Shown here: one piece after another, positions 6,123 to 17,437 of the stretch
Layout: each line of letters opens with the position of its first letter
How positions within the stretch are numbered: position 1 is the first letter of the stretch
Assembly (NCBI GenBank): GCA_018817425.1
Contig: JAHITX010000063.1
Span: 1 to 64,000, forward strand
Direction of reading: 5' to 3'
Length of the DNA: 64,000 nucleotides
Origin: Pseudomonadota bacterium
GTDB lineage: Bacteria; Desulfobacterota; Desulfobacteria; Desulfobacterales; RPRI01
Made by a program: the position numbers and the translations under genes
The notes under the pieces: generated by a model
Databases searched by the model: none
What the model was told of the DNA's origin: nothing
What the model saw: the letters and a program-made list of their open reading frames with translations, nothing else

Positions 6123-6518
6123 TCAGCCCATTTTAAATGGCATTCTTTTCATTCCAAAACCGATCTTGAGTTCTTTAATCATGTTCTCACTGCACTGACC
6201 ACGTTGGTTATACCACCGCACTACCTGCTCAATATCTTCTGTGAGGTTTGTCGCTATTACTGTGTATTTTTCTTTTTCATCAAATAACTTTTTCTGAATG
6301 GGTTGGCGGATTACTATCAAACGAAATGCTTGCTTTTGTGCCTCAATTCCGGTTGCATCTATATCCAGAGTATAACCTTTGACACCGGAATACTTAAGCC
6401 CACGGTTTATTATCTTTCCGTTTACCTTGGCAAGGCCTTTTTCCATGGGGTCGCTTTCTCAGTAACAAAATTATTGTTGCGACAGAAGTGATCAAGCAAC
6501 TGATGGGCCCGAAGCTGC
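6123..6518 (-). pseudogene. IS1380-like transposase remnant (deleted and frameshifted)
   Basis: Two pieces of a DDE transposase remain on the minus strand. The 5' piece (about 6445-6518) reads HQLLDHFCRN...NFVTEKATPWK and is out of frame with the main 107-codon piece (6123-6446). The main piece contains YTLDIDATG, the first catalytic-Asp motif, and WYNQRGQCSENMIKELK, the Y-(2)-R-(3)-E type motif. Normally well over 100 residues separate those motifs; here there are about 50, so the centre is deleted. Motif style fits IS1380. No intact ends were found. It marks the left border of the defence-type island. Confidence 0.7.
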
Positions 6519-6717: not shown

Positions 6718-7539
6718 TTATATCTCTGTCAGCTCTGATGCATCCGTATAGGGAATCAAAGCCCCAGTGTTTCTTTTTTTCCAAACTTGCTCTCGGTGGG
6801 CAGCATCATAAGCCATCTTTTTGCGTGGGAAGGCAGCAGCAACCTTAATAATTATTCTTTTTTCTTCCTCTGTCAAAGTTTCAGCTTTTGTTTCATCAGC
6901 GGCTCGGATTAAACTTATCAGTTCGTTGTAATTATTAAGTTGTGGCCCAAATGGCAATGCTGCATAGGTTGCACCGGTAACACTCTGGCCAATCTCTTTA
7001 AATGCAAGCATATCAACATACCACAAATACTTTACATCAAATAACAGCTTATCCCCATCAACAAGGAATTTACAGCCTACTTCTTCTTCAAGCGCTATCA
7101 TTACCAGTTTAATTCTTGGGATCGATATCGCAGCCCTGTTACCGGTATAGGGGTTTCCAACTTGTCTTCCATCGAAAGCGCTCTTGAGTGCCTTATCCAT
7201 TGATTTGGTTTGTATAATACCATTTTCCCATCTTTTAATGCTTACAACACCAACTCCGGCTTTTCTTGACAGTTCCTTTTGAGTCCACCCTAACTCTTTT
7301 CTTTTTCTTTTTATTTCATTGCCGGTTAATAAACCTTTTGTCTCTCTATAAGCATCAGCTATTGTATTTTGTATTGCAGCAGCCTGTTCTATTGTCCCAA
7401 CACTGATTCCGCATTCATCACATATATAAGTTTCTGCTTGATATTTAATCTTTATGCCCCTAAATGTTTTCTGTTTTTCAACTTTTTTTAGTGACATCTT
7501 CCCATGATCGTTTGGGCAATTAACAGTACTTTTCATCAT
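6718..7539 (-). CDS. MqsA-like antitoxin: zinc finger + XRE HTH + SocA/Panacea domain
   Basis: The 273-residue protein has three parts. Residues 1-50 form a YgiT-type zinc finger (C8, H12, C40, C43). Residues 73-122 form an XRE helix-turn-helix (LGWTQKELSRKAGVGVVSIKRWE). Residues about 135-273 match the SocA/Panacea (DUF4065) pattern, with YADML-like WYVDMLAF and LPFGPQLNNY. Panacea domains are known as interchangeable antitoxin neutralising domains. It lies 32 bases downstream of a small MqsR-like toxin gene in the same operon, toxin first, as in mqsRA. It should repress the operon through the palindromes at 7970-8013. A second system of the same architecture is at 44544-45925. Ribosome site: GGAGGG just before ATGATG. 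Confidence 0.85.
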   Translation of the reverse strand: MMKSTVNCPNDHGKMSLKKVEKQKTFRGIKIKYQAETYICDECGISVGTIEQAAAIQNTIADAYRETKGLLTGNEIKRKRKELGWTQKELSRKAGVGVVSIKRWENGIIQTKSMDKALKSAFDGRQVGNPYTGNRAAISIPRIKLVMIALEEEVGCKFLVDGDKLLFDVKYLWYVDMLAFKEIGQSVTGATYAALPFGPQLNNYNELISLIRAADETKAETLTEEEKRIIIKVAAAFPRKKMAYDAAHREQVWKKRNTGALIPYTDASELTEI

Positions 7540-7571
7540 TTTGCCCTCCTCCCTTCGTTGTTTTACTCTTC

Positions 7572-7925
7572 CTATACTCTATCTTTATGCAATGAAACCA
7601 AATAAAACTTATCGTTCTTTATGCAAAATTTAAGATAGACCTTACAACCTAATCTTTTACTCTTCCATTTAAACGCGAAAAGCTCAGAATTTATAATTTC
7701 TCTTTCATAAGACCTCTGTGGAGGATGATCTCCGGCATAATGTTGAATCTCAAGTTCGTCTAAAATCTGCATTAAAATTGATTCCAGGCTTTCAATTCTA
7801 TAACCCAATTCAATGGCATCCTCGGCAATCACATCTGGTTCTATTATTAATATGTCCACCTGCTCAACAATGGCTTTTGCCCGCTTTATTTTAAGATGGA
7901 TCTCCCTTTTGGACGGTCTTTGCAT
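7572..7925 (-). CDS. Predicted MqsR-superfamily toxin
   Basis: A 117-residue protein encoded directly upstream of the zinc-finger/HTH/Panacea antitoxin. The C-terminal half has the order expected of MqsR-type mRNA interferases: a helical ELGYRIESLESILMQIL segment, an aromatic/His region (QHYAGDHPPQRSY), then strands VYLKF and FYLVSLHKD. E. coli MqsR has VYLKI...LIVSFKE at the same place. Sequence similarity is weak, so the call rests on length, gene order and these blocks. RNase activity is inference. The ATG at 7925 sits unusually far (14 bases) from the AAGGAG upstream, which may keep translation low. Confidence 0.65.
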   Translation of the reverse strand: MQRPSKREIHLKIKRAKAIVEQVDILIIEPDVIAEDAIELGYRIESLESILMQILDELEIQHYAGDHPPQRSYEREIINSELFAFKWKSKRLGCKVYLKFCIKNDKFYLVSLHKDRV

Positions 7926-7969
7926 TTAATTGAACGTATCTCCTTCGAATAAAGGATTAAGAACGCTAA

Positions 7970-8022
7970 GTATCAATTGATACCTTTGTTCACATAATGG
8001 TATCAATTGATACTTATGTCAA
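7970..8022 (-). promoter_or_regulatory. Promoter and twin palindromic operator of the MqsRA-like operon
   Basis: Two identical perfect palindromes, GTATCAATTGATAC, lie at 7970-7983 and 8000-8013, 30 bp apart centre to centre (about three helical turns). On the minus strand a consensus -35 (TTGACA, 8017-8022) and a -10 (CATTAT, 7994-7999) are separated by exactly 17 bp, and the upstream palindrome occupies that spacer. A dimeric HTH antitoxin bound here would block RNA polymerase directly. Confidence 0.9.
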
Positions 8023-8080
8023 GAAAAAACTTTGCCAAGTTTAATCGTATTTACTAGATTTATTTAATTTTTATGCACTT

Positions 8081-8215
8081 CGCTTGAACCCTGGAACCCT
8101 CGAATCCTTGAACCCTTATAAGATCACCACCTCTATCGAAGGCAATCCAAATATTATTGCAAAAACTTTGTCATTAGGGTATAAAAAATTCAAATAAATT
8201 AAAATGATTGATGAT
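8081..8215 (+). repeat. Dispersed intergenic repeat family R2, copy B
   Basis: CGCTTGAACCCTGGAACCC and CGAATCCTTGAACCCTT match copy A. The tail (ACCACCTCT, GGCAATCCAAATATTATTGC, TTTGTCATTAGG, GATTGATGATTG) matches copy C at 8878-9025. It lies between the two toxin-antitoxin modules. Confidence 0.75.
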
Positions 8216-8317
8216 TGTTCAGGAGAATTATATTAGTTTTTACCTTTCTGGCTATTCTCCTTTAATGTTAACATCTCCAATACTTTAGAATTACCAGTAA
8301 AAATATGGAGCAATACT

Positions 8318-8533
8318 ATGGAATCAATAGATCAATTAGCAAAAAAGGCGATAGAACTTCGACCGATAGAACGAATTCGTTTGGTTGAGGCTATTTTATA
8401 CAGCCTCGATAAACCTGATCCGGATATCGAAAAAAGTTGGATTGCCGAATCCGAAGCCCGATATGAAGCTCATAAGCGAGGAGAGCTTGAGGCTATTGAT
8501 TGGGATGAAATTAAAAAGAGGTATGAAGTTTGA
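8318..8533 (+). CDS. Addiction-module antitoxin, Unstab_antitox family
   Basis: The 71-residue protein fits the putative addiction module component family (PF09720/TIGR02574): the N-terminal helix AKKAIELRPIERIRLVEAIL, then a W-containing acidic middle and IDWDEIKKRYEV at the C-terminus. Such proteins neutralise ParE/RelE-fold toxins. The ribosome site is GGAG, 7 bases before ATG. Its stop codon overlaps the toxin start (TTGA), implying translational coupling. Confidence 0.85.
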   Translation: MESIDQLAKKAIELRPIERIRLVEAILYSLDKPDPDIEKSWIAESEARYEAHKRGELEAIDWDEIKKRYEV

Positions 8534-8823
8534 AAGTCCGTTTTTTATCTCCTGCAAATAATGAATTAGATGAAGCAGTGCGATACTATAACCACCAATT
8601 GCCCGGGTTAGGCTTTCGCTTTTTTCAGGAAATTGCAGCAGCTATCGAACGAATAGAGTTTATGCCGGAAGCGTGGACGAAAACAGGTGAACGAACAAGA
8701 CGCTGCATTCTAAAGGGTTTTCCTTATGCTCTTCTCTATATTGTAGATCCAGAAGAAATTATCATCACTGCTGTAGCGCATCTACACAGAGATCCGGAAC
8801 ATTACAAAGATAGAATCAAGTAA
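8530..8823 (+). CDS. ParE/RelE-superfamily toxin
   Basis: A 97-residue toxin with the ParE/RelE pattern: VRFLSPANNELDEAVRYYN at the N-terminus, a central helix ending MPEAW, RRCILKGFPYALLYIV, and a final ITAVAHLHRDPEHYKDR. These toxins target gyrase (ParE) or ribosome-bound mRNA (RelE); which applies cannot be told. It begins with TTG overlapping the antitoxin stop by four bases. Confidence 0.85.
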   Translation: MKVRFLSPANNELDEAVRYYNHQLPGLGFRFFQEIAAAIERIEFMPEAWTKTGERTRRCILKGFPYALLYIVDPEEIIITAVAHLHRDPEHYKDRIK

Positions 8824-8877
8824 ATTTGCCATCAGGTTAAATACGCCTATCGATTAGAACCAGCCGAGTAGAAGGAA

Positions 8878-9025
8878 TGCTTGAATTTCTACAATCCTTG
8901 TAATATGGATCACTTAAATCCTCATAAAATCCCCACCTCTTTCGCAGGTAATCCAAATATTATTGCAAAAAACATGTCATTAGGTTATGTAAATTTTCAA
9001 ATTAATTTAATTGATTGCTGATTGA
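8878..9025 (+). repeat. Dispersed intergenic repeat family R2, copy C (diverged)
   Basis: Shares CCCACCTCTTTCGCAGG, TAATCCAAATATTATTGCA, ATGTCATTAGG and the ATTGATTGCTGATTG tail with copy B, while the left CTTGAACCC block is degraded. It occupies the gap before the large STAND gene; no promoter was resolved here. Confidence 0.65.
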
Positions 9026-9109
9026 TTAAAAGAAATGTGATAATTTTTTGATCTATTCAGATTTAAAACCCTAAATTGTTCTTAAGTTTTAGAAAATAAA
9101 TAATTTGGT

Positions 9110-12100
9110 GTGTTAAAAATGATACCAGGCGGAATAGCAGATAAATTAGGTAATCGATATGAAGCAAAGTGGCTTGTTCGTTCTTTTTTGGATGTCATTT
9201 CAAACAAGGCACATTGGTTGAAATTTGAAAGTGTTGAAACTGAATATCGGGGGTTCGAATTTGCTGTTGCACGTGAAGATATTATTGAGTGGCATCAAAC
9301 CAAGATAAATTCTCCTTCCGGAAACTGGACAATTAATGCTCTTAAAAAAGAAGGTGTGTTAAAAGCTTTTTTAAAGAGATTAATGGCCGATGAAATTAAT
9401 CATTGTTATTTTATATCCCAAGACAATGCTAACGATTTTAGAAGACTAACAGGCAAAGCGCAATTATCAAACTCTTATGATGAATATGTGCAAATTCTTT
9501 CGAAGGAACAAGAAGATTCTCTGCAGATATTAAAAAAAGAATGGCAACAATCTGATAAAATTATTTTCGACTGGCTTAAGCGAAGCCATGTTGAAATAAT
9601 TCCTGAAAGAGAATTAGAATCACTAATTGAATCCTATGGTGATCTATATTTCCATAATGGCAGTAAAACTGCTTTCCCAAATTTACGTGATATTTTAGAA
9701 AATCACTTTAATAAAACTCTTACCTGTGAAGCTGCACGTTCCGCTATCAAGCTAAGTGAAAAACTGAAATTCAAAGAATGGTCATTTGACCTGACGATTA
9801 GACAGCGCTTAATCGAAGAAACAGATGCTTATCTCCAAACATATACACCTTTTGGAACAGGTGGAGAAACAATTAAAAGAAATCAAACAAATAAGTTAAT
9901 TGATGAAATACTTACACCCGATTGTCCGGAATTAATAATGCTTACAGGTGTTGCAGGTTCTGGGAAATCCGGAATTGTACGAGGTGCAATAGATCTGCTT
10001 CGTAATAAAAATATCCCTCATTTGGCTTTTCGGATTGATCATTATTTATCATGTAGTACCAAAGAAGAACTCGGCAAAAATCTTACAGGTAGAGAAGAAA
10101 GTTCTGTCAGCACTTTAAAGGGAACCTTTCCAACCGTTCAATCAATTCTGTTTATTGATCAAGTGGATGCCATCAGCGAGGTTTCCGGAAGAGATGGGCA
10201 GGTAAAAGAAGTATTATTTCGACTAATAACTGATGCTCATAATTTTGGCGGTGTCACGGTTGTGGTTGCTTGCCGTACATTCGATCTGGATAGCGATCCG
10301 CGGCTAAAAAAATTAAAAGAATCTAATCAGGCAAAAACAATAGATATCCCTTTATTCGAATGGAGTGCAGAAGTTGAACCACTTTTAAAGAAGAAAGGCA
10401 TTGATGTCGCTTCGCTAACAAAATCACAGAGTCAATTACTTCTATTTCCGATTAATCTTGCCATTTTTATGGAAATAGATGACCCCAAACTTTCATTTCA
10501 TTCTCGTTCAAATTTATATGAAAAATTGATAGAGAAAAAACAACGTATCTTAACAAAGGAGCGAAAAACATCTTGGCCTTTGATCCGTCCTTTAAAAGCT
10601 TTATGTGATTGGATGAGCAAAAGGCAAAGGCTAAATGCTCCTGTATCCGTTATTGATGATTATCAGAATGCTGCTGATATTCTATCTTCCGAAGGAATGA
10701 TTATATCATCCCGTGGTCAAGTCAATTTTTTCCATGAAAGCTTTTTCGACCATGTTTATGCAAGGGCTTTTGCAAACAACAACCAAAACCTACTTGATCT
10801 GCTCACAGAAACAGAACAACATCTTTTCCGGCGAACACAGGTTAGACAAATTCTCGAAGCTTTGAGGCAAAATGACTTTAATCGCTATATAAAGGAACTT
10901 TCTATGGTTCTTGAAAGTAGCGATATACGCTTCCACATAAAAGCTGCTATCTGCCAATGGTTGAATTCTATTGATAACCCGACTGAGCAGGAATTTGACA
11001 TAATAACTAAATTTAATAACCCAAGCGGAAAGTTTGATCAATTTTTCCATAAAGCAGTTTTATCAACTTATATATGGTTTGATTTTTTAAATGAAAAAAA
11101 TTGGATTAGGCAACAAATCGAAGGAAAAGATGAAGTGCGTTCCGAAGAGGTGCTTTGGTGGCTTCGGAATATTGCAGGAGAAAAACCTACAGAAGTTGCT
11201 AAATTATTACGTTTTTGGTGGAATAATGACACTAAACGTTCAGAATATCTGCTTGACTGGTTTAGTTTAGTAAGGAGAACCAAACCTGATAATGATCTTT
11301 TCCTATTATGTGAAGATATAATTCAATTAAATCCAAAATATTTATTTAAAAATCATAAGGATGGTCGCGTTACTATGCTTCTGCACACATGGGGAGAAAA
11401 ATCACCTGAAAATTGTGGGCGTCTTCTTAATTTAATCTTCGAAGCTTGGTTCGCAATTAATCCCGGAAGGAATCCGTTCGATCGTAATGAATTAAAGGCA
11501 ATTGATATTCATTCACTTGCCCAGATTGCAAAAAAAATGCCCCAAAAATTTTTACAAGGAACTACTAATGCTTTTGCCCACTTAATTAATATGGCGGTTG
11601 CGGAAGTTCAAAACGGAAAAAATCGCTACGATTTTAATTATAGGACATATTCTGGACATCATTTTGGATTTGATGAATTTTTAGATATATACCGTTCAGC
11701 ACTTAATAAAATCGTTCAAGATGCTCCGGAAGCTGCTATCAAATATCTTGAAACACTTGACCCCTATAAGCATCAATGCTTCATGCATCTACATTTAGAA
11801 TCAATTAGAAATAACCCGAAATTTTTTGCGAATCGTTTGCCTGCGCTTTCCCCCAACAAAATACTATTTGATTCCGGCTGGAATGGAGCGGAATGGTTGC
11901 TGTTTGCTTATGCTTGCCGCGAGGCAATGCCTCACTTGACTTCTGAAGAAAAAAATGAGGTTGAACAGGCAATTCTTAATTACACCCCTGAAATCGACAA
12001 TGCTACTCAATTTATAAGAACAATTAATAAGAACGAGCAGGGGGAAAAACATGGCGCAAAAGAGAGTGTCATATACTACCTTAATCGTTCAGGATATGAG

Positions 12101-13705
12101 CAATTATGCATTTTAGAAACTATCGGTGAGAATTTTCTCAGTTCGGTTGCTTTATCACAAATTCACAAACTTCGTAAAAAATTTCCAAAAGCAAAAATTA
12201 AAGGGCCAAGTAATATTGAAATGCATTTAGTTGGTTCACCTATCAAGCATGATCATTGTGCCAAAATGAAAGATAGCCATTGGTTATCTGCTATAAGTTG
12301 CTATGATAATGATGATTTTAAACGCTATGGTCACGATTTTATAGATGGAGGAGCACGACAACTTGCTAATGAACTACAAGAGGCAACTAAAAAAGATCCT
12401 AAAAGATTTTGTAATCTTTGCCTGAAAATTCCTGACTCCGCTCATCATGCATATATTAATCATGTTTTATGGGGATTGGCAGATACTGAAAAGCTTCCCT
12501 CTGAGGAATTAATAACTCAGGTTATAAAAAGCGCTCATCAGCACCCAGATAGGCCTTTTGGCAAAAATATAGCCAGGTTGATAGAAAAGCACCCTCATAT
12601 TGCCACCGATTTAAGAGTAACAGAAATACTTATATGGTATGCTTTAAATGGAGAAGCGGTTGAAAACGAAAGTTCAGATACTGAAAAGACTGAAAACCAA
12701 ACAGTATCTATTGAAACACTAATTAAACAGGGCCGAGGTTTTTGCATTCGTACCAATAATACTCGCGGCTCCGCCTGGAAAGCATTGGGATCTATTTTAT
12801 GGCAAGTTAAAGAAGCAGAAAATTATATTTGGGATGCAATTGAAATAGCACTTAATAAAGAAAATTTAATAAGCGTTCGTTGCTGTATGATGAAACCTCT
12901 AATACCTTTATTTAATATGAACAAGGATCGTTTTTCCGATTCAATTAGCAGATTGTTAATTCTTCCTGATGGTTCACCATACAAATATGATTCATTACGG
13001 CTTTCGCCGCTTATAACCTATGAAGCTATTCACTTATTTCCATATATTTTTTATTGGTTGCCTAAGCTTGCTGAAAAACTTGTAGCAGAACTATTAAAAA
13101 GCAAAAATGAAACCCAAAAATTGATAGGTGCATGGCTTATATTTTGTGAAAGTTTCAAAAATAATGAATATATTTTTATAGCTGATGAACTTGCTACTAA
13201 AAGTATAAACCATAAACGCCTCTTAGCTCAAGTTGCATGTGATACAATAGCGTGGGCTGACAATAGGCATCGTGTTGATACTATTTTAATAAATTTCTTC
13301 TTTGATGACGATTCTGATGTCCGAAAAATAGCTGCACGTGTTTTTGGAAATGCTCAAGCGAAAGACGTTGAGTTATATAAAGATCTTGCTACCGTATTTT
13401 TGAAATCTCCAGCGTTTGCTGATAATAGCCTTCCTATATTGCATATGCTTGAAGATGCTACTTGTGATGTTCTATGTCTTGTCCTGGAAGCAACACAACA
13501 AATCATCACAGATATAACGGAAAAAGGTGAAAAGCATAAGCTTAGAATTGATGCATATAGACTTCCGGATCTTCTAAAACGCGAATATGTATCATCCGAA
13601 TTTAACCCTGATGCAAGAAAAAGAATTCTCGATCTAATCGATCTCATGCTTTATCATGAAATTTACGGAATAGACAGTATAACTGCTGTCCATGACCGAA
13701 TATAA
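9110..13705 (+). CDS. Predicted Avs-like defence protein: N-terminal nuclease, STAND NTPase, long helical-repeat C-terminus
   Basis: A 1531-residue protein in three parts. Residues about 5-110 look like a DUF4297/Cap4-type PD-(D/E)XK nuclease: GGIADKLGNRYEAKWLV, E43/E45, D57, then Q63-T-K65 in EWHQTK. Residues about 265-560 form a P-loop NTPase: Walker A GVAGSGKS (280-287), Walker B ILFIDQVD (Asp350, Asp353), VVACRTFDL as sensor region, and a STAND-like NFFHESFFDHVYARAF. The remaining about 950 residues are helical with repeat character and no known domain; in Avs proteins this part senses phage proteins. Effector activity and phage sensing are inference. Start is GTG 9110 or ATG 9119; neither has a good ribosome site. 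It stands alone among TA modules and repeats. Confidence 0.75.
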   Translation: MLKMIPGGIADKLGNRYEAKWLVRSFLDVISNKAHWLKFESVETEYRGFEFAVAREDIIEWHQTKINSPSGNWTINALKKEGVLKAFLKRLMADEINHCYFISQDNANDFRRLTGKAQLSNSYDEYVQILSKEQEDSLQILKKEWQQSDKIIFDWLKRSHVEIIPERELESLIESYGDLYFHNGSKTAFPNLRDILENHFNKTLTCEAARSAIKLSEKLKFKEWSFDLTIRQRLIEETDAYLQTYTPFGTGGETIKRNQTNKLIDEILTPDCPELIMLTGVAGSGKSGIVRGAIDLLRNKNIPHLAFRIDHYLSCSTKEELGKNLTGREESSVSTLKGTFPTVQSILFIDQVDAISEVSGRDGQVKEVLFRLITDAHNFGGVTVVVACRTFDLDSDPRLKKLKESNQAKTIDIPLFEWSAEVEPLLKKKGIDVASLTKSQSQLLLFPINLAIFMEIDDPKLSFHSRSNLYEKLIEKKQRILTKERKTSWPLIRPLKALCDWMSKRQRLNAPVSVIDDYQNAADILSSEGMIISSRGQVNFFHESFFDHVYARAFANNNQNLLDLLTETEQHLFRRTQVRQILEALRQNDFNRYIKELSMVLESSDIRFHIKAAICQWLNSIDNPTEQEFDIITKFNNPSGKFDQFFHKAVLSTYIWFDFLNEKNWIRQQIEGKDEVRSEEVLWWLRNIAGEKPTEVAKLLRFWWNNDTKRSEYLLDWFSLVRRTKPDNDLFLLCEDIIQLNPKYLFKNHKDGRVTMLLHTWGEKSPENCGRLLNLIFEAWFAINPGRNPFDRNELKAIDIHSLAQIAKKMPQKFLQGTTNAFAHLINMAVAEVQNGKNRYDFNYRTYSGHHFGFDEFLDIYRSALNKIVQDAPEAAIKYLETLDPYKHQCFMHLHLESIRNNPKFFANRLPALSPNKILFDSGWNGAEWLLFAYACREAMPHLTSEEKNEVEQAILNYTPEIDNATQFIRTINKNEQGEKHGAKESVIYYLNRSGYEQLCILETIGENFLSSVALSQIHKLRKKFPKAKIKGPSNIEMHLVGSPIKHDHCAKMKDSHWLSAISCYDNDDFKRYGHDFIDGGARQLANELQEATKKDPKRFCNLCLKIPDSAHHAYINHVLWGLADTEKLPSEELITQVIKSAHQHPDRPFGKNIARLIEKHPHIATDLRVTEILIWYALNGEAVENESSDTEKTENQTVSIETLIKQGRGFCIRTNNTRGSAWKALGSILWQVKEAENYIWDAIEIALNKENLISVRCCMMKPLIPLFNMNKDRFSDSISRLLILPDGSPYKYDSLRLSPLITYEAIHLFPYIFYWLPKLAEKLVAELLKSKNETQKLIGAWLIFCESFKNNEYIFIADELATKSINHKRLLAQVACDTIAWADNRHRVDTILINFFFDDDSDVRKIAARVFGNAQAKDVELYKDLATVFLKSPAFADNSLPILHMLEDATCDVLCLVLEATQQIITDITEKGEKHKLRIDAYRLPDLLKREYVSSEFNPDARKRILDLIDLMLYHEIYGIDSITAVHDRI

Positions 13706-13932: not shown

Positions 13933-14790
13933 ATGCAGGAAAAATCCTTAGCAGTTTTTGAAAATAAAAAAATCCGAAGATATTATGACGAAACTACTGA
14001 AACCTGGTATTTTTCTGTGGTTGATGTTGTAGCAGTGCTTACCGATTCAATAAATCCGACCGATTATCTGAAGAAACTCAGAAAAAGGGATGCAGAGCTT
14101 GGTTTCTACCTGGGGACAAATTGTCCCCAGGTAGAAATGGAAACAGAAACAGGAAAAAAGAGAAAGACTCTTGGTGGATCGGTTCAACATATTTTGCGAC
14201 TCGTTCAATCCATACCATCGCCAAAAGCTGAACCTTTCAAGCAATGGTTGGCAAAGGTGGGTTATGAGCGTTTGCAGGACATGAGTGACCCCGAGCGCTC
14301 CCTCGATCGCGCCCGTGAATACTGGCAGCAACATGGTAGAAGTGAAAAATGGATCCAGCAGAGAATGATGGGACAGGAAACCCGCAATAAACTCACTGAT
14401 TACTGGAAAGACCACGAAATAACCAAAGAAAATGAATATGCCATTCTCACAGATATCATCCATAAGGAATGGAGTGGTGTTTCAGTTAAGAAGCATAAAG
14501 ATATCAAAGGGGTTAAAACTCAGAATCTGCGTGATCATATGAGTGAAGCGGAGCTGATTTTTACTGCACTGGCGGAACTTTCGACAAGGCAGATCGCTGA
14601 AAGCATTGATGCAACCGGAATGGCAGAAAATGCAGAAGCGGGAAAAAAGGGTGGTAAAATAGCAAAGAAAGCCCGATTGGAATTGGAATCAAAAACAGGC
14701 AAAAGTGTCGTTACTTCTGAAAACTTTCTGCCACCAGCAAAGAAACAAAAACAAATACAACGAAAAACGGATATTGCAGAAAACGAATAA
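13933..14790 (+). CDS. Bro-N domain protein, DinD/phage-antirepressor-like
   Basis: The 285-residue protein has a Bro-N domain at about 8-110 (IRRYYDETTETWYFSVVDVVAVL; LVQSIPSPKAEPFKQWLAKVGYERL), found in phage antirepressors and baculovirus BRO proteins. The second half (SLDRAREYWQQHGRSEKWI; HMSEAELIFTALAE; EAGKKGGKIAKKARLEL near 240-253) resembles the DinD-like C-terminal region. It is probably a DNA-binding or SOS-associated protein of phage ancestry; its partner is unknown. The coding sequence contains a perfect 17-bp-arm palindrome at 14103-14137. It follows the STAND gene by 227 bases in the same orientation and may belong to the same island. Confidence 0.75.
   Translation: MQEKSLAVFENKKIRRYYDETTETWYFSVVDVVAVLTDSINPTDYLKKLRKRDAELGFYLGTNCPQVEMETETGKKRKTLGGSVQHILRLVQSIPSPKAEPFKQWLAKVGYERLQDMSDPERSLDRAREYWQQHGRSEKWIQQRMMGQETRNKLTDYWKDHEITKENEYAILTDIIHKEWSGVSVKKHKDIKGVKTQNLRDHMSEAELIFTALAELSTRQIAESIDATGMAENAEAGKKGGKIAKKARLELESKTGKSVVTSENFLPPAKKQKQIQRKTDIAENE
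14103..14137. repeat. Perfect 35-bp palindrome inside the Bro-N gene
   Basis: Two 17-base arms (TTTCTACCTGGGGACAA and its complement) are separated by one base. It encodes FYLGTNCPQVE within the Bro-N domain, so it lies in translated sequence. It could be an operator, a recombination hot spot, or a consequence of codon choice around a symmetric segment. Confidence 0.9.
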
Positions 14791-14866: not shown

Positions 14867-15793
14867 ATGTTAATGAAACACAAAAATATTTTCACAATAA
14901 TCTCAACCCTTGTTACCTTTTTGGTATTTACTTCTTTTTTGTATGCTAAAGAGCAAGCTGAAGTTCAGGTAAGTGCCCAGAAAATTGCTGATAATATTTA
15001 TATGTTTACCGATTCCGGCGGCATGGGCAATAGTACTGTTTTAGCGGGTAATGACGGTGTTTTGATGATCGATACTAAAGTTGCAGACTCTGTTGATAAG
15101 CTTCTTTCCAAAATCGCGGAATTAAGCAGTAAACCTGTCCGTTTTGCAATTATTACCCATTGGCATTATGATCATGTTGGGGGAAACCAAAAAGTCGCTG
15201 AAACCGGAGCAACTATTCTTGCCCATGAAAATGTTCGAAAGCAAATGGGCATAGAGCACGAGATGAAAATATTTAACAAGAAGGTTCCGCCTGCATCACA
15301 GATAGCACTGCCGCTTCTTACGTATGAGAAAGAAATAACATTTCATATGGACAGCGAAGTAGTAAAAGTATTTCATCTGGAAGCCGGACATACTGATGGC
15401 GACTCTGTAATATATTTTAAAAATGCTAATGTACTTTGCACGGGCGATCTTTATTTTGAAGGGATTTATCCTTATATCGGAATCTATTCCGGCGGAACAA
15501 TCAACGGTATGATTAAGGTCATTAATCAAATTCTTCCGATGATTGATGAAAATACCAAAGTTGTTCCGGGTCATGGCCCGTTGTCAAATAAAGCAAAACT
15601 TGAGCAGTACGTTTCAATGTTGACCACAATCAGAGATAACGTGAGCAAGCTTATGCAGGAAGGCAAAACAACGGAAGAAGTTGTTGCCGCAAAACCTACT
15701 CAGGCATATGATGAAAAATGGGGAAAAGGATTTCTGCCGCCGGATAAATTCGCCGGTTTAGTATATATGGATCTATCACCGGAATTGCCATAA
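14867..15793 (+). CDS. Secreted metallo-beta-lactamase-fold hydrolase
   Basis: The 308-residue protein has a Sec signal peptide (cut predicted after LYA, about residue 27) and an MBL fold. The zinc motif THWHYDHVGG gives H98, H100, D102 and H103; further ligands are in EAGHTDGDS and CTGDLYF, with VPGHG near the end. It resembles periplasmic subclass-B-like or quinoprotein-relay-like hydrolases rather than a resistance enzyme. The ribosome site is AAGGAGG. A TM2-domain gene follows 21 bases after its stop and is probably co-transcribed. Confidence 0.85.
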   Translation: MLMKHKNIFTIISTLVTFLVFTSFLYAKEQAEVQVSAQKIADNIYMFTDSGGMGNSTVLAGNDGVLMIDTKVADSVDKLLSKIAELSSKPVRFAIITHWHYDHVGGNQKVAETGATILAHENVRKQMGIEHEMKIFNKKVPPASQIALPLLTYEKEITFHMDSEVVKVFHLEAGHTDGDSVIYFKNANVLCTGDLYFEGIYPYIGIYSGGTINGMIKVINQILPMIDENTKVVPGHGPLSNKAKLEQYVSMLTTIRDNVSKLMQEGKTTEEVVAAKPTQAYDEKWGKGFLPPDKFAGLVYMDLSPELP

Positions 15794-16300: not shown

Positions 16301-17437
16301 GTGAAAACTATCCGAATAATCTTTTGCATAATTATTGTATTTTTTGTTGCAGATACCACATTTACAAAAATCTATTGTTCACAAGGTGATGATGATAATT
16401 ATTACTCTGAAGACTTAACCGAAGAAGATGATTATGAAGAAATATCAGAAGCAGACGACTATGAAGAAATATCAGAAGAAGATGACGTTGATGATATATC
16501 CTTTCAGTCTGACTCCTTCTCAGTCAACTCGGGAGCAAAAGATTTGGAGGCAGAACTATTTGACCGCTATAATCCGACCGGAGCTGTAGAAAAGGCATCT
16601 ATAGCTACCGTTACCGTCAAAACATCTATGGGAACCGGATCGGGTTTTTTTATAACTTCAAACGGCTATATTATAACGAATAAACATGTTCTGCGTGGTG
16701 ATAAAAACCAACTGGCTAAAGCTAAGAAGCATATTAATAAAATAGATTCAGACGCAAAAAAGTACAAAAAGCTGTTTGCCGCCGAGGAAAAATTGCTTGA
16801 AAAGCGCGAAAAGCAACTGAAAGACTACAAAGAAAAGATTGACAAGCTGACTTATATACCGCTGAAAGAAGCCGAAACTGAAAAATATAAAATGGCTTAC
16901 GATAACTATCTTAGGCGGAAAGAAAATTTCAGTTCTCAAAAACAGGAATTTCTTTCAAATCTCGATTCCTATTCAAACGCAAAAGATGATTACTCATATA
17001 ATGTTGCAGTTGGTGCTCTTTCAAGCAATTTTACTATTATAATCAAGGATGGCCGTGAATTCGATGTTTACTTAGTTGCAGAAAGCAAAGATGCTGATTT
17101 GGCACTGCTTAAGATAGATGATATTATAACACCCTTTATCAAACCGGCCATGTCTCGCCAAACAAGTCAAGGACAAGATGTATATGCGATTGGGAGTCCA
17201 ATTGGTTTAAGAGATTCCGTAAGCTCAGGCATTATTTCAGGCTATGAAAATGGTTATATTAAAACCAACGCCCAAATTTATCCTGGCAACAGCGGTGGCC
17301 CGCTTATAACTGATGATGGAAAAGTAATCGGCGTAAATACTTTAAAAATGCTTACTCGCAACTTTGAAGGTCTTGGTTTTGCTATACCCATTGAAATAGC
17401 TGTTTCAGAATTTGAAAGTTATTTAAACAATCCGTAA
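16301..17437 (+). CDS. Exported S1C trypsin-like serine protease with acidic repeats and a coiled-coil insertion
   Basis: The 378-residue protein starts at GTG (the overlapping ATG is followed at once by TGA). After a signal peptide an acidic stretch (about 34-67) repeats DDYEEIS-like units. The catalytic triad is H129 (TNKHVL), D266 (ADLALL) and S331 (GNSGGP). An insertion of about 105 residues, rich in Lys and Glu and predicted coiled coil (about 135-230), separates His from Asp. No PDZ domain follows, unlike DegP/HtrA. The insertion may be a regulatory or oligomerisation arm; target unknown. Confidence 0.85.
   Translation: MKTIRIIFCIIIVFFVADTTFTKIYCSQGDDDNYYSEDLTEEDDYEEISEADDYEEISEEDDVDDISFQSDSFSVNSGAKDLEAELFDRYNPTGAVEKASIATVTVKTSMGTGSGFFITSNGYIITNKHVLRGDKNQLAKAKKHINKIDSDAKKYKKLFAAEEKLLEKREKQLKDYKEKIDKLTYIPLKEAETEKYKMAYDNYLRRKENFSSQKQEFLSNLDSYSNAKDDYSYNVAVGALSSNFTIIIKDGREFDVYLVAESKDADLALLKIDDIITPFIKPAMSRQTSQGQDVYAIGSPIGLRDSVSSGIISGYENGYIKTNAQIYPGNSGGPLITDDGKVIGVNTLKMLTRNFEGLGFAIPIEIAVSEFESYLNNP

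Follow-up and report, generated by a model that had tools for sequence, protein, structure and literature searches.

A predicted nuclease-STAND protein with a HEAT/ARM-like solenoid tail as a candidate NLR-like sensor of phage infection in a desulfobacterial genome

The DNA analyzed here (the window) was a stretch of 64,000 nucleotides, positions 1 to 64,000 of the forward strand of contig JAHITX010000063.1 (assembly GCA_018817425.1, Desulfobacterales). It encodes a large protein, hereafter the window protein. Three parts were predicted: residues ~1-222 form a Cap4/HamA-like PD-(D/E)XK nuclease, residues ~225-684 form a STAND/NACHT switch, and an α-solenoid tail follows. It was concluded that the protein, encoded by a single gene, is probably an NLR-like (Avs-like) sensor that detects phage infection inside the cell and acts by abortive infection. 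The observed basis of this conclusion was the three-part architecture, the predicted folds, the conserved catalytic and nucleotide-binding residues, the exchange of effectors among relatives, the mobile and patchy distribution of the family, and the defence genes beside several copies.

The gene was a single uninterrupted open reading frame (ORF) at 9110-13705 on the forward strand, GTG-started and encoding 1531 amino acids. Residues were numbered from the GTG at 9110. Since its closest relatives start at residue 4 of this numbering, the ATG at 9119, which is preceded by a GGTG stretch, was considered the likelier start, and the protein probably has 1528 residues. The conservation counts below refer to a 53-row alignment of the window protein and 52 relatives (46 of the 63 loci found in genome contigs, three plasmid, two phylum-genome and one viral). 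All relatives but one were uninterrupted (51 of 52), the exception being L085, which was cut by an in-frame stop (1381 aa).

The N-terminal part was modeled with AlphaFold2 on residues 1-760 using 49 sequences (mean predicted local distance difference test, pLDDT, 88.8; predicted TM-score, pTM, 0.82). The PD-(D/E)XK core that the original prediction had asked structure prediction to find was present, as ~220 residues folded like Cap4 and HamA. In VIA comparisons, Cap4 (7yia) matched the model with Z 14.2, 208 aligned residues and a root-mean-square deviation (rmsd) of 3.5 over the model range 8-379, and HamA of Hachiman (8zue) matched residues 13-223 with Z 13.8, 190 aligned residues and rmsd 3.7. 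None of the Pfam nuclease models matched the window N-terminus, and none was found among the best 25 of 27 families for the 49 relatives. The core fold, the acidic residues and the (E/Q)xK motif expected of a Cap4/DUF4297-type PD-(D/E)XK enzyme were all found by fold comparison and residue counts.

Two acidic residues, E18 and E40, were invariant (53/53 each), position 50 was always acidic (E in 33 rows, D in 20), Q63 was Q in 48 of 53 rows, and K65 was K in 52. These residues presumably play the catalytic roles known from PD-(D/E)XK enzymes. The QxK region noticed earlier was thus retained with part of its proposed active site: E45 was acidic in only 36 of 53 rows. E43 and D57 were rejected as catalytic residues, since neither was conserved (position 43 was mostly G, 35/53, as was position 57, 39/53). 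The 46 genome-contig rows, obtained by a profile scan, had been retrieved with the patterns ADKLGNR[YF] and a stretch ending HQ[TC]K, so that residues 10-17 and ~57-65 appear conserved in part because of the retrieval itself. The patterns did not cover E18, E40, residue 50, W73 or the STAND motifs, and the ADKLGNR and HQxK motifs were present too in the plasmid and phylum-genome loci, which were chosen without patterns.

The Walker A/B STAND-like core claimed at the outset was borne out. The Walker A residues G283, G285 and K286, the Walker B residues D350, Q351 and D353, as well as R389, D392, F540 and H542, were invariant in 53/53 rows; F540 and H542 may correspond to the NACHT winged-helix histidine motif. 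Among Pfam models, AAA scored above its cut-off on the core, and NACHT, nSTAND1 and nSTAND_NTPase5 scored below theirs. The NACHT score of 19.7 bits against a gathering cut-off of 26.7 leaves the protein, by this measure, outside the bNACHT/NACHT clade, though its fold is NACHT-like. Residues ~225-684 were matched by VIA to NLRP9 (Z 18.2, 391 aligned, rmsd 4.6) and also to NLRP3, NOD2 and NLRC4; for the animal NLRs NLRP9, NLRP3 and NOD2, Z was 16-18. In a Foldseek search with residues 1-760, the top three PDB hits were Avs3 (E 2.3e-13) and Avs4 (6.1e-12 and 9.2e-12), and NLRs came next.

The very long helical tail was confirmed by AlphaFold2, which modeled residues 560-1531 as an almost wholly helical solenoid (mean pLDDT 88.2, pTM 0.70). 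Its last ~490 residues (~1038-1530; 479-971 of the model) matched HEAT/ARM solenoids of the PP2A-A, integrator, importin and CAND types in Foldseek and VIA. The best VIA Z was 16.8 with rmsd 8.2, and PP2A-A (8u89) gave Z 16.1 with rmsd 5.4, values to be read with the caution that for repeats a Z below about 13 may mean little and that the remaining tail model was barely tested. Avs chains were absent among the best 50 fold matches of the tail, which was not taken as evidence. The tail had been called unrecognized, and in the window protein itself it indeed had no Pfam match at E<=0.01. Among 49 tails of the family, however, HEAT PF02985 was matched in 32 and HEAT_2 in 20 at the same threshold, and all 11 Pfam families so matched included no TPR family. 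Median identity to the relatives was 18.5% for residues 561-990 and 21.5% for 991-1531, whereas the nuclease reached 25% and the switch 28.5%. Conserved tail positions included W1058, P1097, R1099, N1216, R1219, G1220, D1399, L1507 and D1511. Residues 991-1531 were net negative in all nine sequences checked.

The assignment of roles to these parts was supported by effector exchange. The switch is retained in more distant relatives, several of which also have a detectable tail. Alternative N-terminal effectors were found, namely a caspase in L016 (Peptidase_C14, 1.6e-12), a SEFIR/TIR domain in L017 (1.2e-13) and a nucleoside phosphorylase in L086 (1.9e-14). In L016, located at 6744-11870 of a Tolypothrix plasmid stretch, the caspase is set on the remnant of a Cap4-type nuclease, which is followed by the STAND-HEAT body. 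The remnant, lying between caspase and switch, was alignable up to the Q of the QxK motif, without what follows. Compared with the nuclease-type Nostoc protein L015, L016 was 67% identical along a stretch of 676 residues and 62% identical along 708 residues of the tail, and the tree joined the two at 100/99. This comparison was taken as direct evidence that the N-terminus is an exchangeable effector and that the rest comprises the switch and the sensor. The pair, with caspase or nuclease on a 62-67% identical switch and tail, allows a direct test of effector exchange. The nine effector-variable rows were long-branched, and joins with L018 in the tree may be false. A further STAND-HEAT-type protein, L088 (7301-11692), had an N-terminus of ~180 residues without a confident Pfam effector match.

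The family was found to be widespread, mobile and patchily distributed, with some copies decayed. By tblastn, 42% identity across the whole protein was recorded on three Sinorhizobium/Rhizobium plasmid records, and a planctomycete plasmid relative showed 23% identity over 95%; these four plasmid records carry copies with 95-100% query coverage. Single-sequence scans of genome contigs and viral contigs returned no relatives, whereas profile scans of both found 63 loci and two loci, respectively. Phage records gave no match to the window protein, and the DNA of L089 gave none to E. coli genomes. The 17 genome-contig loci outside the alignment were a duplicate (L050, represented by L084), copies that were broken, split or truncated (L021, L024, L029, L064, L066, L069 and L075), a contig-end copy (L054), L067, whose match ended at residue 729 and which the ORF script did not pick up, and short matches to the N-terminus (L070, L072, L073, L076, L078, L079 and L080). 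The tree additionally included L082.

The labels of the relatives in the tree span 14 phyla, and their hosts are chromosomes, plasmids and virus-like contigs. Nearest to the window protein were copies from metagenome-assembled genomes (MAGs) labeled Aminicenantes, Desulfobacterales and Deltaproteobacteria, with 62-74% identity by domain. The window protein fell within an 11-row clade (100/100) whose other members were labeled Pseudomonadota or came from rhizobial plasmids. Although individual MAG labels may be in error, phylum mixing in the tree was general. Within the sampled phylum, 9 of 395 genomes matched, the window's own included; in two of these the match was incomplete, being a short fragment in G259 and a piece at a contig end in G349. 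A tail-profile search found 8 of 390 phylum genomes, all of them within the same nine. No copy was present in the one same-genus and 15 same-order genomes listed, and the gene is single-copy in its own genome.

Several minor observations were made on incomplete copies. Frameshifted, split, stop-bearing or internally deleted copies were L021, L024, L029, L064, L066, L069, L075 and L085; in L029 and L069 both ends were kept and the middle was gone, and some of the decayed copies may be assembly errors. In genome G259, a 49-residue piece (L090, 11199-11345), the sole match on its contig, was 84% identical to window residues 366-414 and is a possible remnant of a close copy. The short frames of L073 (9956-10609), L070, L072, L076, L078, L079 and L080 matched the nuclease start only and are either stand-alone modules or debris.

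The survey of homologues' neighborhoods suggested by the original prediction revealed defence genes beside several relatives. A complete Gabija pair (GajA/GajB) adjoined L081, TIR-like and PDC-S02 genes adjoined L020, and a type I restriction-modification methylase adjoined L043. A mad8 match was found near L030 and cas1-cas2 near L015, multiubiquitin, ThiF and DUF6527 genes adjoined L011, and AAA ATPase and UvrD helicase genes were located near L018. L082 and L083 were on virus-like contigs with integrases, the L082 stretch also with a tail sheath gene. As neighbors, at most three ORFs of 100-999 aa were picked greedily on each side of the gene at 59 loci, 293 in total. In an all-against-all comparison of these proteins the commonest family was shared by 4 of the 59 loci and the second by three, so the STAND gene was treated as stand-alone.

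Based on known STAND proteins, the following sequence of events was proposed. At rest, the STAND domain would be ADP-bound and the protein would be kept in a closed form in which the solenoid packs on the switch. The HEAT/ARM solenoid (residues ~620-1531) would bind a product made by the phage, upon which ADP would be exchanged for ATP in the STAND domain and the protein would open and oligomerize. The clustered N-terminal Cap4-type nuclease domains would then cut double-stranded DNA indiscriminately, and phage replication, probably together with the cell, would be stopped. Ligand-driven oligomerization, the DNA substrate, abortive infection and the phage-protein trigger were inferred by analogy with known STAND and Cap4/Avs proteins.

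The relation to Avs proteins was considered further. The order of an N-terminal effector, a central STAND NTPase and a C-terminal solenoid, which is that of Avs proteins, was found in the window protein, its solenoid being the presumed sensor, and Avs3 and Avs4 were the best PDB folds for residues 1-760. Avs tails are composed of TPRs, whereas the window family has HEAT-like tails without TPR matches. PADLOC Avs models, which may not cover every Avs type, gave no match up to E 1 for the window protein, and weak Avs2 core matches appeared in two of six relatives (5.9e-4 and 2.4e-3). The solved Avs structures 8dgc and 8dgf were absent from all 33 PDB sequence matches of the N-terminal and switch profile (E<=0.1), and Avs3/Avs4 were absent among the best 60 of 66 PDB sequence matches of the tail profile (E<=1). 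Judged by sequence and tail type, the window protein would not be a member of Avs1-5. The original claim of an Avs-like nuclease-STAND defence protein, one that likely works like an Avs or NLR protein, is supported by the Avs3/Avs4 and Cap4/HamA folds, the defence neighbors, the mobile elements and the swapped effectors. In PMC12724215, Avs1-3 are described as recognizing terminase and Avs4 portal.

The closest solved relative by sequence is a distant, full-length one, the 'AAA family ATPase' of 1523 aa in PDB entries 9n00, 9n01 and 9yix. It was homologous to the window protein in the nuclease and switch (profile E 3.1e-56) and in the tail (5e-22), and carries a QCK motif. Its distance was evident from a single-sequence E of 6.7e-15, with the best stretch at residues 260-644, and its close homologue L089 falls in the other, effector-variable clade. 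A literature search by entry code found no paper naming 9n00, 9n01 or 9yix, and 9n00 was not among the best 50 fold-search matches (fold library ending 2026-04-08). Because of this relative, the suggestion of an undescribed system was softened.

Other known systems share single parts with the window protein. CBASS Cap4 and Hachiman HamA have the fold of its N-terminal ~220 residues, but here the nuclease is fused to a STAND switch: no SAVED domain model, as in CBASS Cap4, was matched up to E 1, residues ~225-684 being STAND/NACHT instead, and no helicase domain corresponding to the HamB partner of Hachiman was present in the six adjacent window genes scanned. PADLOC model PDC-M54A matched the STAND core only (E 5e-11, residues 274-557, of a 1621-position profile). 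Animal NLRs such as NLRP9, NLRP3 and NOD2 share the NACHT-WHD-HD2 fold of residues ~225-684. They possess a leucine-rich repeat sensor and adaptor-recruiting domains, in place of which the window protein has a HEAT tail and a built-in nuclease. DSR2 carries a SIR2 effector and is not known to have a STAND switch. It sets a precedent in that its HEAT-repeat region contributes to binding of a phage tail tube protein (PMC11263360). No published HEAT-tailed STAND defence protein was recognized in the portions of the literature that the searches returned, which included, in part, PMC12931631, PMC10286901, PMC12799240, PMC13245274, PMC7159879, PMC8195603, PMC13092281 and PMC10952713 on STAND immunity and defence.

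Several points weigh against a nuclease-armed phage sensor. The Avs3/Avs4 Foldseek matches had low global TM-scores (0.10-0.27 overall, 0.23-0.27 on the query) and large rmsd, and 8dgf_B gave a VIA Z of 16.9 with an rmsd of 27.8; the low scores and large rmsd indicate matching domains in a different arrangement. In the putative active site, S replaces Q63 in 5 of 53 rows and R replaces K65 in one. DNA as the substrate would follow from analogy. No phage-protection data were found for the window protein or its relatives. L012 (Rhizobium phaseoli) has metabolic neighbors. PADLOC models matched at E<=1e-20 numbered 200 for 147 neighbors and 105 for 146 neighbors against 10 for 145 control proteins, an enrichment that is only qualitative, since the counts are redundant (one Gabija pair alone matches 139 models at 1e-5), the best 25 matches were listed, and some genes of defence type (a type II restriction-modification pair, mad3 and PDC-S68) are present among the controls as well. 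The control proteins came from 18 stretches of sampled genomes, where 154 ORFs were picked in the same way; 147 of them were drawn, and removal of two long ones left 145. Moreover, four of the ten neighbors scanned singly matched either nothing in PADLOC or just a CARF-type model; at 1e-5 there was none for those of L019, L025 and L022 (one of two).

It is unlikely that the protein is instead a restriction-like or anti-plasmid system, in which foreign DNA or DNA ends would be sensed directly and the NTPase would license cutting, along the lines of Hachiman, Lamassu or type IV restriction. Such a role would fit the nuclease fold, which is closest to Cap4 and HamA, the matches of LmuA of Lamassu to the N-termini of two sister-clade proteins (L089, 1.1e-6; L087, 3.8e-13), and the copies on conjugative plasmids, which could serve plasmid competition. 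However, no partner gene recurs widely, the core fits best with signaling NACHT/STAND proteins, and the net negative charge of residues 991-1531 disfavors DNA binding by this region. Similarly, there is only a small chance that the protein acts as a guard, sensing host damage or disturbed host functions, for example via a chaperone, rather than a phage protein. DnaJ-mediated phage sensing is reported for the NLR-related bNACHT25 (PMC12169576), and the tail resembles general scaffold solenoids. Against a guard stands the precedent of the DSR2 HEAT-repeat region, which takes part in binding a phage tail tube protein (PMC11263360). It is very improbable that the protein is a STAND NTPase with a housekeeping or regulatory role and no relation to defence. 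Nothing specific speaks for it beyond generic AAA-type matches and the metabolic neighbors at the single locus L012, and it is opposed by the patchy distribution, the phylum mixing in the tree, the plasmid and virus-like contexts, the decayed copies and the effector swapping.

Under the phage-sensor interpretation, bacterial NLR-like immunity gains a large, mobile family of single-gene receptors whose sensor scaffold differs from the Avs type. It is conceivable, if on balance doubtful, that the family represents a pan-bacterial STAND-HEAT class of NLR-like receptors distinct from Avs1-5, in which a HEAT/ARM sensor is combined with interchangeable killers (nuclease, caspase, TIR/SEFIR or nucleoside phosphorylase) and a tail with the N-x-x-R-G signature reads some conserved phage protein that is neither terminase nor portal. 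The identity of the trigger would tell whether HEAT-type sensors, like Avs tails, recognize a conserved phage fold.

Table 1. Coordinates of the window protein gene, its predicted parts and the neighboring genes
Feature	Residues	Window positions	Strand	Basis
Nuclease-STAND-HEAT protein gene		9119..13705	+	ORF called from GTG 9110, likely ATG 9119; sequence and starts of relatives
PD-(D/E)XK nuclease domain, Cap4/HamA type, predicted effector	1-222	9110..9775	+	AlphaFold2, VIA
Putative active-site span: E18 (9161), E40 (9227), E50 (9257), Q63-x-K65 (9296-9304)		9161..9304	+	53-row column counts
STAND/NACHT NTPase switch, including a winged-helix part; F540 and H542 invariant	250-560	9857..10789	+	Pfam, VIA, column counts
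Walker A	G280-S287	9947..9970	+	53-row column counts
Walker B (D350, Q351, D353 invariant)	345-354	10142..10171	+	53-row column counts
HD2-like and first solenoid segment, least conserved region	561-990	10790..12079	+	AlphaFold2, identity medians
HEAT/ARM-like solenoid, predicted sensor; W1058, P1097-x-R1099, N1216-x-x-R1219-G1220, D1399, L1507, D1511	991-1531	12080..13702	+	Fold, Pfam, conservation
Bro-N gene, PADLOC phage-defence candidate PDC-S13		13933..14790	+	Near full-length match, E 1.6e-118
Unstab_antitox and ParE-type toxin-antitoxin pair, directly upstream of the STAND gene		8318..8823	+	Family matches
MqsA-family helix-turn-helix antitoxin with SocA/Panacea domain, and 117-aa partner without confident family		6718..7925	-	Family matches
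DDE transposase remnant, C-terminal		6123..6446	-	Family matches

The neighbors named in the original prediction, two toxin-antitoxin-like pairs, a DDE transposase remnant and a Bro-N gene, were all present in the window (Table 1). The Bro-N gene, starting 227 bases downstream of the STAND gene, is a second candidate defence gene. The STAND gene was AT-rich at third codon positions (GC content 0.25, compared with 0.37 for Bro-N and 0.43 and 0.45 for two genes further out). A promoter and terminator scan yielded fewer hits than shuffled sequences and was not used. When nine window neighbors were compared with the loci of the relatives, none matched at E 1e-6 and one matched weakly at 1e-3.

Among the relatives, the most recurrent neighbor family was found at L033 (7971-9569), L044 (8567-9958), L062 (7386-8864) and L085 (14498-15943), and the second one, directly upstream in all three cases, at L021 (5682-6761), L029 (25-606) and L061 (8564-9652). 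Further downstream in the window, a metallo-beta-lactamase-fold protein (14867-15793, forward strand) and a trypsin-like protease (16301-17437, forward strand) were recognized by eye, both with signal-peptide-like starts. This pair recalls the metallo-beta-lactamase nuclease/protease pairs described in PMC12799240, but looks exported.

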